From contig NZ_JAWDIC010000004.1 of assembly GCF_032464895.1 (NCBI RefSeq), positions 248,001 through 312,000 on the forward strand: a stretch of DNA of 64,000 nt. The letters run 5' to 3'. Each line of letters starts with the position of its first letter. Position 1 is the first letter of the stretch. Positions 19,473 to 25,952 of the stretch are shown here, piece after piece. Position numbers and translations under genes: made by a program. Origin of the DNA: Phycicoccus sp. M110.8 (GTDB taxonomy: Bacteria; Actinomycetota; Actinomycetes; Actinomycetales; Dermatophilaceae). A model generated the notes under the pieces. The model did not search any database. It saw only the letters and a list, made by a program, of their open reading frames with translations, and was not told the origin of the DNA.

Positions 19473-20072
19473 TCAGTCGCGCAGCGCGTCGAGCACGGTG
19501 GCCAGGTCGGGGCTGTTGCGGCGGTTGTACGGCAGCCGGGACAGGGCCATGCCCATCAGGCAGCTGTCCGTGAGCGCTGCGCCGACCAGTCCGCCGCCGA
19601 CCGCGGCCGAGACCCACTTGGCCCAGGGCGCCACGACGCTGGCGAGGACGCCGGTCAGCACGATGCCGCCGGCCACGAGCCGCACCTGTCGCTCGAGCTC
19701 CCACGTCCGGGCGCCCCGGGTCAGCGGGCCGCCGGCGGACTCCCAGGCCGTGACGCCGCCCGTGAGGACGTGCACGTTGCCGGGCCCGGCCGCGGTGAGC
19801 AGGCCCTCGGCCTGGCCGGCCCTCGCGCCCGAACGGCAGATGAGGACCACGTCCTCGTCGAGGTGGCGTCGCAGCTCCTCACGGTGCTCGCGGAGCAGGT
19901 CCAGCGGGACGTTGTAGGAGCCCGGGATGTGGGCCGTCGTGAACTCGGCCGGCGTGCGCACGTCGAGCAGGCGAGGAGCGTCGTCGCCCTCGAGCCACTC
20001 GCGCAGCGCGGGGGCGTCCAGGGCCGTCGGGCGGCCGGAGGTGGGGGTGGTGGTCGGCGTGGTGGAGGTCAT
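19473..20072 (-). CDS. Rhodanese-DUF2892 membrane sulfurtransferase
   Basis: 199 residues. A rhodanese domain (residues 18-115: LLDVRTPAEF, active-site loop ICRSGARAGQAE with Cys as persulfide carrier, VLTGGVTAWESAGG) is followed by a DUF2892 part with two hydrophobic segments (GGIVLTGVLASVVAP, GGGLVGAALTDSCLMGMAL). The fusion is common in bacterial sulfide/persulfide loci and probably places the sulfurtransferase at the membrane. AAGGACCC precedes ATG 20072. It is the last gene of the minus arm of the sulfur island. Confidence 0.92.
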   Translation of the reverse strand: MTSTTPTTTPTSGRPTALDAPALREWLEGDDAPRLLDVRTPAEFTTAHIPGSYNVPLDLLREHREELRRHLDEDVVLICRSGARAGQAEGLLTAAGPGNVHVLTGGVTAWESAGGPLTRGARTWELERQVRLVAGGIVLTGVLASVVAPWAKWVSAAVGGGLVGAALTDSCLMGMALSRLPYNRRNSPDLATVLDALRD

Positions 20073-20116
20073 GGGTCCTTCGCGGGGTCGGGTTCTTAAG
20101 GGTGGTCGGGTCGGGT

Positions 20117-20170
20117 GGATGGCAGCGGGGGATGGGGGGAGCGCGGGCTGGATGGCAGCGGGGAATGGGG
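20117..20170. repeat. 21-bp G-rich direct repeat, two copies
   Basis: GGATGGCAGCGGGG followed by RATGGGG occurs at 20117-20137 and 20150-20170, 20 of 21 bases identical, period 33 bp. More GGATGG and GGGG tracts follow up to 20210. It fills the gap between the rhodanese and TSUP genes. No coding function is seen. Confidence 0.7.
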
Positions 20171-20253
20171 AAGCCGGGGGATGGGTGGGGCGCCGGATGG
20201 ATGGGCGCGCCGCAGGGGTGGAGGGCGCCCGCGCCTGACGGCGGCCCGCCGGC

Positions 20254-21063
20254 TCAGAACAGGCTGGGGACGCTGCGGGCCGCCGTGTACAGCGCGACGG
20301 CGACCAGGAGCACGGCGAACGCGCGGGTGAGGTGCCGCGGCGCGACCCGGGCCGCGACACGGCCGCCCACGAGGCTGCCGGCGACCGCAGCCGCGGTGAA
20401 GGCGAGGATCACGCCCCAGTCCAGCGACATCCCGCTGCCGGCACGGGCACCGAGCGCCGTGGCGCTGTTGACGGCGATGACGAGCAGCGAGGTCCCCACG
20501 GCGACGGGCATGGGGAAGGCCAGGGCGAGCACGAGGGCCGGGACGAGGGCGAAGCCGCCGCCCACGCCGAAGAAGCCGGTGAGCAGGCCGACGGCCGTCG
20601 CCGTCACGACGACCTTGGCGACGCGCGGGCAGGCGCACGTGAGGGGGCGCAGGGTCAGCATGGGCTCGGTCGTCGCGTCCTCGACGGCGTCGTCGAACGC
20701 GTTCCGACGCAGTGACCGTCGGAGCATGAGGGTCGCGACGACCAGCATGAGGACGGCGAACGCCGACAGGAGCACGGCCGGACGCACGTGGGTCGCCAGT
20801 GCCGAGCCGGCGACCGAGCCGGCCGTGCCTAGGGCGCCGAAGGCCAGCCCCTGCCCGAACCTGACGTTGCCGCGGCGGGCGTGGGGCAGAAGCGCGATCA
20901 GCGAGGTGATGCCGACGATCAGCAGCGAGCTGGTGGTGGCCTGCCTGGGGTCCTGTCCCAGCAGGTACACGAGGGCGGGGACCGTGAGGATCGAGCCGCC
21001 GCCACCCAGTGCGCCCAGGGACAGGCCGATGAGCAGCCCGACGGGCAGGACGAGCGGTGACAT
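20254..21063 (-). CDS. TauE/SafE (TSUP) sulfite-exporter-like permease
   Basis: 269 residues with about eight membrane segments and the two TSUP repeats: LGALGGGGSILTVPALVYLL near residue 16 and TGFFGVGGGFALVPALVLAL near 160. An internal cytoplasmic loop near 140 holds two close Cys (LTCACPRVAKV). Relatives beside persulfide dioxygenase and rhodanese genes are thought to export sulfite made during sulfide oxidation. AAGGAG lies 8 bp before ATG 21063. A hairpin just upstream separates it from the small Cys-rich gene. Confidence 0.9.
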   Translation of the reverse strand: MSPLVLPVGLLIGLSLGALGGGGSILTVPALVYLLGQDPRQATTSSLLIVGITSLIALLPHARRGNVRFGQGLAFGALGTAGSVAGSALATHVRPAVLLSAFAVLMLVVATLMLRRSLRRNAFDDAVEDATTEPMLTLRPLTCACPRVAKVVVTATAVGLLTGFFGVGGGFALVPALVLALAFPMPVAVGTSLLVIAVNSATALGARAGSGMSLDWGVILAFTAAAVAGSLVGGRVAARVAPRHLTRAFAVLLVAVALYTAARSVPSLF

Positions 21064-21085
21064 GTCAGGACTCCTTGGTGGTGGT

Positions 21086-23877: not shown

Positions 23878-23927
23878 CGCGACCGGCTCGCCCCACAGAC
23901 CGAACGACGACGACAAGGAGCACCGAC

Positions 23928-24320
23928 ATGGGCTACGCACTGAGCGCAACCGTCACGCAGGCCTTCGCCCCGACCCTCGAGGCCACCCGGGCTGCGCTGG
24001 CGGACCAGGGTTTCGGCGTGCTGACCGAGATCGACCTCGCCGCGACCCTCAAGGCCAAGATCGACGTCGACATCGCCCCGCAGGTCATCCTCGGCGCGTG
24101 CCGGCCCCCGCTGGCCCACGCCGCGCTCTCGGCGGAGCCGTCCATCGGCCTGCTGCTGCCGTGCAACGTCGTCGTCCGGTCGGTCGACGACGAGACCACC
24201 CTCGTCGAGGCCATGGACCCTGAGGTCATGGTCACCCTCACCGACAATGCCGAGCTCGGCGGTGTCGCCGACGACGCGCGCCAGAGGCTCACCGCAGCGC
24301 TGGCCTCCCTCACCGACTGA
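23928..24320 (+). CDS. DUF302 protein
   Basis: 130 residues of the DUF302 type: [20 protein letters not shown] near residue 20, [20 protein letters not shown] with the single conserved Cys, then [10 protein letters not shown]. The family is soluble, common beside rhodanese, thioredoxin and CsoR-like genes, and has no proven activity. ACAAGGAG precedes ATG. Cys near residues 56 and 74 could carry sulfane sulfur (inference). Confidence 0.9.
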
Positions 24321-24349
24321 ATCCCCCGCACCAACCCAGGAGACCCACC

Positions 24350-24616
24350 ATGGTCACGCTCAACAGCGACGACATGACCCCCGTCATCAACCGCCTGCGC
24401 CGCGCGCAGGGCCAGATCGGCGGCGTCATCCGCCTCATCGAGGAGGGCCGCGACTGCAAGGACGTCGTCACGCAGCTGGCTGCCGTGAACCGGGCCCTGG
24501 ACCGGGCCGGCTTCGCGATCGTCTCCTCGGGCATGCGCGAGTGCCTGACGTCGCCCGACGGCATCAACGCCGAGGACCAGGCGACGATGGAGAAGCTCTT
24601 CCTCACCCTCGCCTGA
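24350..24616 (+). CDS. cstR: CsoR/CstR-type repressor, probably persulfide-sensing
   Basis: 88 residues, the whole CsoR family fold: [20 protein letters not shown] then [20 protein letters not shown] and GMRECL. The two Cys are 29 residues apart, matching Cys36 and Cys65 of copper-sensing CsoR. The position of the copper-ligand His, 25 residues after the first Cys, is Gly here. Loss of this His with both Cys kept is the CstR pattern, where persulfide cross-links the Cys pair and releases DNA. AGGAGACC precedes ATG. It sits in the plus arm it probably represses. Confidence 0.88.
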
Positions 24617-24620
24617 CCCG

Positions 24621-25952
24621 GTGACGTCCCCCGCCGCCCTCGAGGCAGCGCAGGACGGGCCGCGGGCACCCAGGCTCGGGCTGCGCGCCAACGCGGCCCA
24701 GTTCACCCTGCTGGTCGCCGTCAACGCCCTCGTGGGCGGCATGCTCGGCCAGGAGCGCACGGTGCTGCCGCTCCTGGCCGGTCAGGTCTTCGGCCTGCAC
24801 GCCCACACCGCGGCCCTCACGTTCATCGTCGCCTTCGGCCTGTCCAAGGCCGGGGCCAACTACGCCGCCGGTGCGTGGTCCGACCGCCACGGCCGCAAGC
24901 CCGTGCTCGTCGCGGGCTGGCTCGTGGCCGTGCCGGTGCCGCTGCTGCTGATCTGGGCCCCCACCTGGTGGTGGGTGGTCGCGGCCAACGTCCTGCTCGG
25001 CATCAGCCAGGGCCTGACGTGGTCGACCACCGTCGTCATGAAGATCGACCTCGCCGGCCCCGGCCGCCGCGGGCTGGCCATGGGGCTGAACGAGGCCGCC
25101 GGGTACGGCGCGGTGGCTGTGACCGCCCTGGCCACCGGCTGGATCGCGGCCCACGCCGGCCTGCGCCCCGAGCCGTTCCTCCTGGGCATCGCCTTCGCCG
25201 CCCTCGGCCTCGGGCTGTCCAGCCTGACCGTGCGCGAGACGCACCACCACGCCCGGCACGAGGCGCTGGCCTCCTCTGCCGTGGCGGACGGCGGAGCACG
25301 GCCCGGCCAGAGGACGTCCGAGGGGGCTTCGTCCGACGGGTACCTCTCCGACCGCGAGGTCCTCGCCCGGACCAGCTGGCACGACCGGACGCTGTCCGCG
25401 GCGAGCCAGGCCGGGCTGGTCAACAACCTCAACGACGGGCTCGCGTGGGGGCTGTTCCCCGTGCTGTTCGCCGGGCCAGGGCTGTCGGTCGGCCGGATCG
25501 GCTGGCTGGCCGCGACGTACCCGGCCGTGTGGGGCCTCGGCCAGGTCGCCACCGGGGCGCTGTCGGACCGCTGGGGCCGACGCGGCTTCATCGTGGCCGG
25601 CATGCTCGTGCAGGCGCTGGCCCTCGGACTGGTGGCGGCGGCCGACAGCTTCGGCTGGTGGCTCCTGGCCACGGCGCTGCTCGGGGCCGGGACCGCGATG
25701 GTCTACCCCACGCTGCTGGCCGTGATCGGCGACGTCGCCCACCCGGCCTGGCGGGCGCGGTCGGTCGGCGTCTACCGGCTGTGGCGGGACGGCGGCTTCG
25801 CCGTGGGGGCGCTGCTCGCGGGCGTGCTCGCGGACCTGTGGGGGATCCGGGCGGCCGTCCTTGCCGTCGCGGTCCTCACCGCCGCGTCCGGCGTCGTGGC
25901 CAGGTTCCGGATGGCGCCCTCCATCGGCGGCGCCCGACCCGGCGTCGGCTGA
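24621..25952 (+). CDS. MFS transporter of the sulfur island
   Basis: 443 residues with 12 predicted membrane segments. The loop 2-3 signature GAWSDRHGRKPVLVAG and its repeat in the second half, GALSDRWGRRGFIVAG, are clear. The central loop (residues about 205-255) is His-rich (RETHHHARHE). It starts at GTG 24621, 4 bp after the repressor gene, so it belongs to the same transcript. MFS genes of this type recur with cst-like loci; the substrate is unknown, with a sulfur oxyanion or organic thiol being possible. Confidence 0.88.
   Translation: MTSPAALEAAQDGPRAPRLGLRANAAQFTLLVAVNALVGGMLGQERTVLPLLAGQVFGLHAHTAALTFIVAFGLSKAGANYAAGAWSDRHGRKPVLVAGWLVAVPVPLLLIWAPTWWWVVAANVLLGISQGLTWSTTVVMKIDLAGPGRRGLAMGLNEAAGYGAVAVTALATGWIAAHAGLRPEPFLLGIAFAALGLGLSSLTVRETHHHARHEALASSAVADGGARPGQRTSEGASSDGYLSDREVLARTSWHDRTLSAASQAGLVNNLNDGLAWGLFPVLFAGPGLSVGRIGWLAATYPAVWGLGQVATGALSDRWGRRGFIVAGMLVQALALGLVAAADSFGWWLLATALLGAGTAMVYPTLLAVIGDVAHPAWRARSVGVYRLWRDGGFAVGALLAGVLADLWGIRAAVLAVAVLTAASGVVARFRMAPSIGGARPGVG

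Follow-up and report, generated by a model that had tools for sequence, protein, structure and literature searches.

Within a window of 64,000 nucleotides from Phycicoccus sp. M110.8 (contig NZ_JAWDIC010000004.1, positions 248,001 to 312,000) lies a divergent locus whose two arms are very probably switched by a single CstR-type repressor (Table 1). The left arm encodes a single-domain rhodanese, a fusion of a metallo-beta-lactamase (MBL) domain to a rhodanese, a 58-residue Cys-rich protein (hereafter Cys58), a TSUP/TauE permease, and a rhodanese joined to a YgaP-like transmembrane segment. The right arm encodes a thioredoxin, a DUF302 protein, the repressor and a transporter of the major facilitator superfamily (MFS). 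Pfam matches agree with the gene content that a first-pass annotation, made from the sequence alone, had given for both arms. The permease is a probable exporter of sulfite or thiosulfate. Between the arms lies a gap of 224 bp, running from the start of the rhodanese gene (23287, minus strand) to that of the thioredoxin gene (23512, plus strand).

Table 1. Features of the two-armed locus; positions are counted from the first letter of the window
Feature	Position	Strand	Basis
Rhodanese + YgaP-like transmembrane protein, 199 aa	19473..20072	-	Pfam PF00581, PF11127
TSUP/TauE permease, 269 aa	20254..21063	-	Pfam PF01925
Cys58, 58 aa, family unnamed	21252..21428	-	Without Pfam, NCBIfam or significant PDB match
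MBL-rhodanese, CstB / type III persulfide dioxygenase-like, 462 aa	21504..22892	-	PDB 3tp9 3.4e-53, 3r2u 2.6e-44
Single-domain rhodanese, 107 aa, first gene of left arm	22964..23287	-	Pfam PF00581
Operator 1, ATACCTAGTGGGGTAT	23316..23331	.	Motif scan; core agreement 100% with 11 other gaps
Operator 2, GTACCCTCGGGGGTAT, adjoins minus-strand -35-like word	23351..23366	.	Motif scan; core agreement 75%
TTGACT, possible -35 of left-arm promoter	23370..23375	-	Offset of 7-9 bases before site recurs, 30/160
Operator 3, ATACCCCAGCCGGTAT, precedes right arm	23463..23478	.	Motif scan; core agreement 84%
Thioredoxin, 121 aa	23512..23877	+	Pfam PF00085; TIGR01068 above cut-off
DUF302 protein, 130 aa	23928..24320	+	Pfam PF03625; PDB 1j3m 7.5e-27
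CstR-type repressor, 88 aa, Cys36/Gly61/Cys65	24350..24616	+	Pfam PF02583
MFS transporter, 443 aa, starts 4 bp after repressor gene	24621..25952	+	Pfam PF07690

The window contains exactly three copies of the motif RTACC-N6-GGTAY (hereafter the N6 site), all of them within the divergent gap, at the positions given by the first-pass annotation (23316, 23351 and 23463). Shuffled windows contained 0.01 matches on average, and three were reached in 0 of 100 shuffles. In the whole 4.12-Mb genome the motif is found 7 times, compared to 17 times for the pattern read backwards. Two of the four copies outside the gap (L002, L004) are inside long open reading frames (ORFs), one (L003) overlaps a tRNA-Gln gene and the fourth (L001) lies within a short ORF only. 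Because these outside copies are mostly in ORFs or a tRNA gene, the recognisable regulon of this genome, as judged by exact matches, is the divergent gap alone.

A scan of relatives for RTACC-N6-GGTAT upstream of these genes had been proposed as a check, and the dyads prove to be conserved. From 186 family genomes we picked by hand 80 loci centred on repressor matches, taking the closest first; together with the window they make 81 records and 1.26 Mb. At a spacing of 6 these contain 160 sites, whereas the other spacings between 0 and 14 yield 0-3 apiece; the reversed control pattern gave 0-15 matches over the same spacings and 4 at spacing 6. A site is present in 76 of the 81 records, and for 152 of the 160 sites a locus gene starts no more than 320 bp downstream. 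Divergent gaps could be delimited in 57 cases, 55 of which contain one to three sites (108 in total, against a Markov-shuffle mean of 0.115). When the window gap was aligned with 11 other rhodanese/thioredoxin gaps, the three dyad cores agreed at 100, 75 and 84%, compared to 43% elsewhere. The position of the middle site varies, its offset being 107-108 of the gap in L044 and L046-L048 versus 63 in the window.

We also assembled a Cys58-anchored set, consisting of the best 80 of 590 matches in a search of a genome collection with the pattern TW[AT]GCGxHV; 12 loci are common to this and the repressor-anchored set. An N6 site was found in 65 of these 80 loci, with 105 sites in all, compared to counts of 0-5 for the remaining spacings and 0-7 for the reversed control, and in 36 of the 80 a site lies within 300 bp upstream of Cys58 itself.

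The first-pass annotation had proposed that the middle site covers a minus-strand promoter. A scan of 23250-23560 for consensus sigma-70 promoters gave no match. However, the hexamer TTGACT (23375-23370, minus strand) stands 9 bases ahead of the middle site, and this arrangement recurs: TTGAC begins 7-9 bases before the site, on either strand, at 30 of 160 repressor-anchored and 7 of 105 Cys58-anchored sites. At any place in the 30 bp upstream of sites, TTGAC was counted 32 and 12 times in the two sets, respectively, compared to 3 and 2 times for the control word CAGTT. The recurring offset lends some support to an operator placed behind a -35 element, as at the middle site of the window. Matching -10 elements are less clear.

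Eight of the sites in the repressor-anchored set lie outside these 320-bp upstream stretches. They include sites at the starts of flavoprotein genes in L110, L113 and L117; in the case of L117, the one for which a structure match is at hand, the nearest structures are sulfide-quinone reductases. The operators at these sulfide:quinone oxidoreductase-like genes are at L110:13446, L113:10023 and L117:1626 and 1650. Another L117 operator, at 4028, precedes a small lipoprotein-like gene with no Pfam match.

The repressor matches PF02583 above the cut-off (7.3e-23). Members of the CstR subgroup have two conserved Cys and lack the metal-binding His between them, whereas the metal site of copper CsoR and RicR proteins is Cys-His-Cys. 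The window protein departs from the latter pattern, with Gly61 replacing His between Cys36 and Cys65. Similarly, the His is absent (C-[GNSAE]-C) from all 81 repressors of the repressor-anchored set, which were picked by similarity, and from all 41 in the Cys58-anchored set. The other PF02583 protein of the genome is a canonical C-H-C CsoR (EHLEHC) that adjoins CopA, and the genome-wide motif scan placed no N6 site upstream of its gene. Among loci returned from 17 other genomes, each about 3 kb or less, an N6 site lies near 12 of 22 CstR-type genes versus 0 of 7 C-H-C genes (Fisher P = 0.02). The context is also that of a CstR: the repressor gene stands beside rhodanese, MBL-rhodanese and TauE genes preceded by ATACC-N6-GGTAT. 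By its sequence, then, the 24350..24616 protein is a member of the CstR subgroup, as its earlier description as CstR-like had it, and it would be expected to bind the operators and to be released by per- or polysulfide.

Cys58 itself belongs to no named family in the libraries searched. At E ≤ 10 the window protein matches nothing in Pfam or NCBIfam (a relative gives a sub-threshold Pfam match, at 1.1), its best hit in a PDB profile search is not significant (E = 0.36), Foldseek found no fold match at E ≤ 0.001, and its peptide string does not occur in the paper library searched. We aligned the window protein with 59 of 76 distinct relatives; L131, which starts MRR, and L182, which is truncated, are among those omitted. 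Residues M1, C2, C7, C10, T14, W15, A16, G17, C18, G19, H21, V22 and C35 are invariant in these 60 sequences, the stretch TW[AT]GCGxHV being the search pattern and hence invariant by selection. In total, five Cys and two His are invariant or nearly so. Under the known rules of Met removal, Cys2 would become the N-terminal residue; in L131 the protein begins MRR. A short paralogue without an operator occurs in genus g27 (L275-L278), in two genomes with CstR (G058, G064) and two without (G062, G063).

That the small protein belongs to the regulon, as the first-pass annotation had assumed, is supported by two comparisons. Seventeen of the best 80 Cys58 loci are solo, meaning that no other locus gene is present in the stretch covered; in L127, L158, L168, L169, L176 and L196 that stretch reaches only a little way on one side or both. 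An operator is nonetheless present in 14 of these 17, and for one of the three copies lacking it the upstream sequence available spans just 72 bp. The genes around solo copies vary (14 loci inspected), and 16 of the 17 genomes, which include close relatives (Dietzia, Cryobacterium, Terrabacter), have a CstR-type gene at another place. The second comparison concerns co-occurrence. Across the 186 family genomes, Cys58 is present in 136 of 148 with CstR (best match E < 1e-15, a threshold we set) versus 6 of 38 without (P = 4e-20, in a count that treats related genomes as independent). The same two groups average 7.7 and 3.7 motif copies per genome, respectively.

Among the six genomes with Cys58 and no CstR, G002 is marginal (4e-4), G062 and G063 have only the short paralogue with no site, and G016 is 58% complete. 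The remaining two are G150 (75% complete) and G175, which is near-complete and the sole clean case. In G175 (L273) Cys58 is present, no CstR match was found, and the aligned operator has decayed; six genomes of the same genus keep it. Decay of the operator in a genome apparently lacking CstR reads as one natural experiment. In a phylum-wide sample, Cys58 was found in 65 of 396 genomes, and 30 loci returned from this sample, three of them from the family (one being the window), contain 21 N6 sites versus 0-1 at spacings 3-10. In L207 and L226, where Cys58 lacks an N6 site, the 110 bp upstream contain a different palindrome, ATTGTCCGTACAAT, and control may have passed to another regulator.

Evidence for DUF302 is of the same kind and less complete. 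The gene is found in 73 of the 186 family genomes, 72 of which have CstR (72 of 148 with CstR versus 1 of 38 without). Out of 80 DUF302 places, 48 are within 5 kb of a compared CstR place, and another 9 have a compared Cys58 place within 6 kb, leaving 23 near neither, an upper bound in that only part of the CstR and Cys58 places was compared. We fetched 20 of these 23: two had no match, and two proved to be linked (L291 to CstR, L295 to Cys58 and MBL-rhodanese). Among the 16 unlinked genes, the site is no more than 320 bp away in three and 334-545 bp away in another three, two of which follow a thioredoxin gene; for the other ten, no site lies within 545 bp. These data suggest that the tie of DUF302 to the operator is real but partial. 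For the MFS transporter, none of 10 matches in the repressor-anchored loci has its own site, and its tie to the regulon is solely its position 4 bp behind the repressor gene. The idea of the first-pass annotation that one sensor controls the whole system is thus partly supported: comparison favours it for the repressor gene, the conserved operators between the two arms and Cys58, and less firmly for DUF302, and the MFS gene never has a site of its own.

The MBL-rhodanese departs from its characterised relatives. Its MBL domain scores 22.1 bits in Pfam, slightly below the cut-off of 22.7, and is fused to a C-terminal rhodanese with the presumed active Cys in a VHCAGG loop, which is the architecture of type III persulfide dioxygenases (PDOs) and CstB; its best matches include the MBL-rhodanese structure 3r2u, which we take to be S. 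aureus CstB. The mononuclear metal of type III PDO/CstB enzymes is held by His, His and Asp. At the presumed Asp column the window protein has Gly142, reading FTGGSLL where 3r2u and 4ysb read FSGD/FTGD; 3r2u, 3tp9 and 4ysb all have Asp there. Gly is found in 66 of 66 matches with at least 60% identity (a count that includes the window and may take up to 12 loci twice) and in all 5 with 40-60% identity. Among matches below 40%, Asp stands in 12, and the Gly read in 8 others apparently reflects alignment slips. Because the presumed ligand Asp is Gly throughout its subgroup, we call the 21504..22892 protein PDO-like. In the S. coelicolor PDO, a single-guide RNA spacer given by Lu et al. (2020, PMC7533328) translates, by our reading, to T-G-G-S-L-L, the same Asp-less motif, and that enzyme has PDO activity and oxidises glutathione persulfide (GSSH). 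The Asp-less dioxygenase is a second testable oddity of the locus, after Cys58.

Much of the circuit has a precedent. According to the available text of the S. coelicolor study (PMC7533328), the repressor ScCsoR binds promoter fragments sharing ATACCn6GGTAT, polysulfide modifies its Cys37, together with Cys66, causing release from DNA, and the genes controlled encode a PDO-rhodanese, TauE and rhodanese (SCO0618-SCO0620 plus a rhodanese). The window locus is alike in operator, in its two functional Cys and in these genes. It differs in having three operators inside one divergent gap, and it has a thioredoxin, DUF302, a 58-residue Cys protein and an MFS transporter, none of which is named in the four-gene circuit as described there. 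The earlier-studied S. aureus cst operon (cstA, cstB, sqr, tauE; PMC5480029, as far as the text at hand goes) likewise combines a persulfide-sensing dithiol repressor with the MBL-rhodanese CstB and TauE; unlike it, the window locus has no sqr or cstA, and the Asp kept in 3r2u is Gly here. In T. thermophilus, the CsoR-family Sox regulator TTHA1953 is a two-Cys repressor of sulfur genes including thioredoxin; its operator differs (TACNNTACNNNNGTANNGTA), and its Sox regulon is unlinked (PMC10318464, in the portion available). Since the S. coelicolor work settled the operator and the core circuit of repressor, persulfide dioxygenase-rhodanese, TauE and rhodanese, the novelty here is narrower than the first-pass annotation suggested. 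As far as these sources extend, what is new comprises Cys58, the DUF302 extension and the Asp-less MBL enzyme.

Taken together, these data make it very probable that a CstR-type repressor acting at the three gap operators switches both sulfur-detoxification arms and is released by sulfane sulfur. At the level of sequence, the operators and their conservation, the gene content, the repressor fingerprint and the association of operator with CstR can be regarded as established. By analogy with the systems above, we infer persulfide sensing for the Phycicoccus locus and, likewise for this organism, the DNA binding, the persulfide signal, the enzyme and transport steps and the job of Cys58. In the scheme we propose, the dithiol repressor, itself a product of the right arm, would occupy the three ATACC-N6-GGTAT operators between the divergent operons. 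Because the middle operator lies just past the -35-like word of the left promoter, repressor bound there would block RNA polymerase. As sulfane sulfur (persulfide or polysulfide) rises, it would modify Cys36 together with Cys65, the repressor would leave the DNA, and both arms would come on. The MBL-rhodanese would then oxidise low-molecular-weight persulfide to sulfite, with the rhodaneses delivering sulfane sulfur to this enzyme or taking it away; export of the product would fall to TSUP, perhaps together with the MFS transporter, and thioredoxin would convert protein persulfides back to thiols. Cys58 would be a regulon member with a stand-alone job.

Several observations weigh against this scheme. 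In addition to the empty promoter scan, the Gly at the metal-ligand column and the relatedness of the genomes counted, 10 of the 22 CstR-type loci have no site in the ~3-kb stretch covered. No close sulfide:quinone oxidoreductase that could supply the persulfide was found in the Phycicoccus genome (best match, 31% identity). In L264, from G150, a site precedes Cys58 and no CstR-type match was found; in L196, from the metagenome-assembled genome G594, an operator precedes Cys58 and only C-H-C regulator genes were found, making it the exception among the solo copies. Both genomes may be incomplete. Finally, the N6 site at L044:11092 directly precedes an ORF for a copper-type P-ATPase, so a metal sensor may share the motif in that genome. 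The cases of L196 and L044 would fit a repressor that senses copper or another metal in the manner of CsoR or RicR, with Cys58 as a metallothionein-like binder of copper or zinc, as would the invariant or near-invariant Cys and His residues of Cys58 and the resemblance of ATACCn6GGTAT to CsoR and RicR sites remarked on in the S. coelicolor study (PMC7533328). We nevertheless consider a metal sensor highly improbable, given the loss of the His in the window protein and in every repressor match of both sets, the lack of an N6 site in the stretch covered around any of the seven returned C-H-C CsoR genes, the separate canonical CsoR beside CopA, and the sulfur enzymes encoded next to the repressor.

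A sensor for other thiol-reactive stress (nitroxyl, hypochlorite, quinone or disulfide stress), with persulfide as one inducer among several, has a small chance of being correct. S. aureus CstR also reacts with nitroxyl (PMC5480029), TTHA1953 is reported in the available text to lose DNA affinity on oxidation and not with NaHS (PMC10318464), and thioredoxin and DUF302 alone are not indicative of persulfide; against this, rhodanese and MBL-rhodanese genes form the core of the locus, and the S. coelicolor repressor responds to polysulfide (PMC7533328). One might also argue that Cys58 and DUF302 are passengers in an operon beside regulated genes, which is how the window looks on its own, both being internal operon genes with no site of their own. 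The 15 of the best 80 Cys58 loci that have no site, the siteless short paralogue of genus g27 and the ten unlinked DUF302 genes with no site within 545 bp point the same way. We regard this as very unlikely for the pair: solo Cys58 copies have their own operator in 14 of 17 cases, several of them close relatives, with a CstR-type gene at another place in 16 of these genomes, and DUF302 has a site within 545 bp in 6 of 16 unlinked cases and is nearly confined to genomes with CstR.

As a putative member of the CstR regulon, Cys58 would most probably take up or buffer sulfane sulfur, or else retain zinc when its supply is disturbed by sulfide stress, a guess from its regulation and from an N-terminal Cys together with a CxxC...GCGxH...C cluster. 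We rate the two roles about equally; zinc is kept in consideration because sulfide stress triggers a zinc-limitation response in S. aureus (PMC5480029, in the part available). A more far-reaching suggestion, offered tentatively and with the odds somewhat against it, is that Cys58 founds a new class of sulfide-stress proteins: CstR-controlled mini-proteins of Actinomycetota that carry or buffer sulfane sulfur, or zinc under sulfide stress, by means of the cluster and an exposed N-terminal Cys, acting as a stand-alone first line even when unlinked. The operator assigns a likely function to a conserved small protein that is unnamed in the libraries searched, including copies apart from other sulfur genes, and its role is thereby directly testable. 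Genes for DUF302 and thioredoxin are among the members of the actinobacterial regulon that the operator scan suggests, as are, in three relatives, those for sulfide:quinone oxidoreductase-like proteins.

On either side of the locus are other genes of possible note. A DUF2202 protein is encoded downstream of the MFS gene, at about 26080-26760 (plus strand), and genes for a SulP sulfate permease, a MerR regulator and an ArsP-type permease adjoin the locus at 16027-19437, a stretch with no operator sites.

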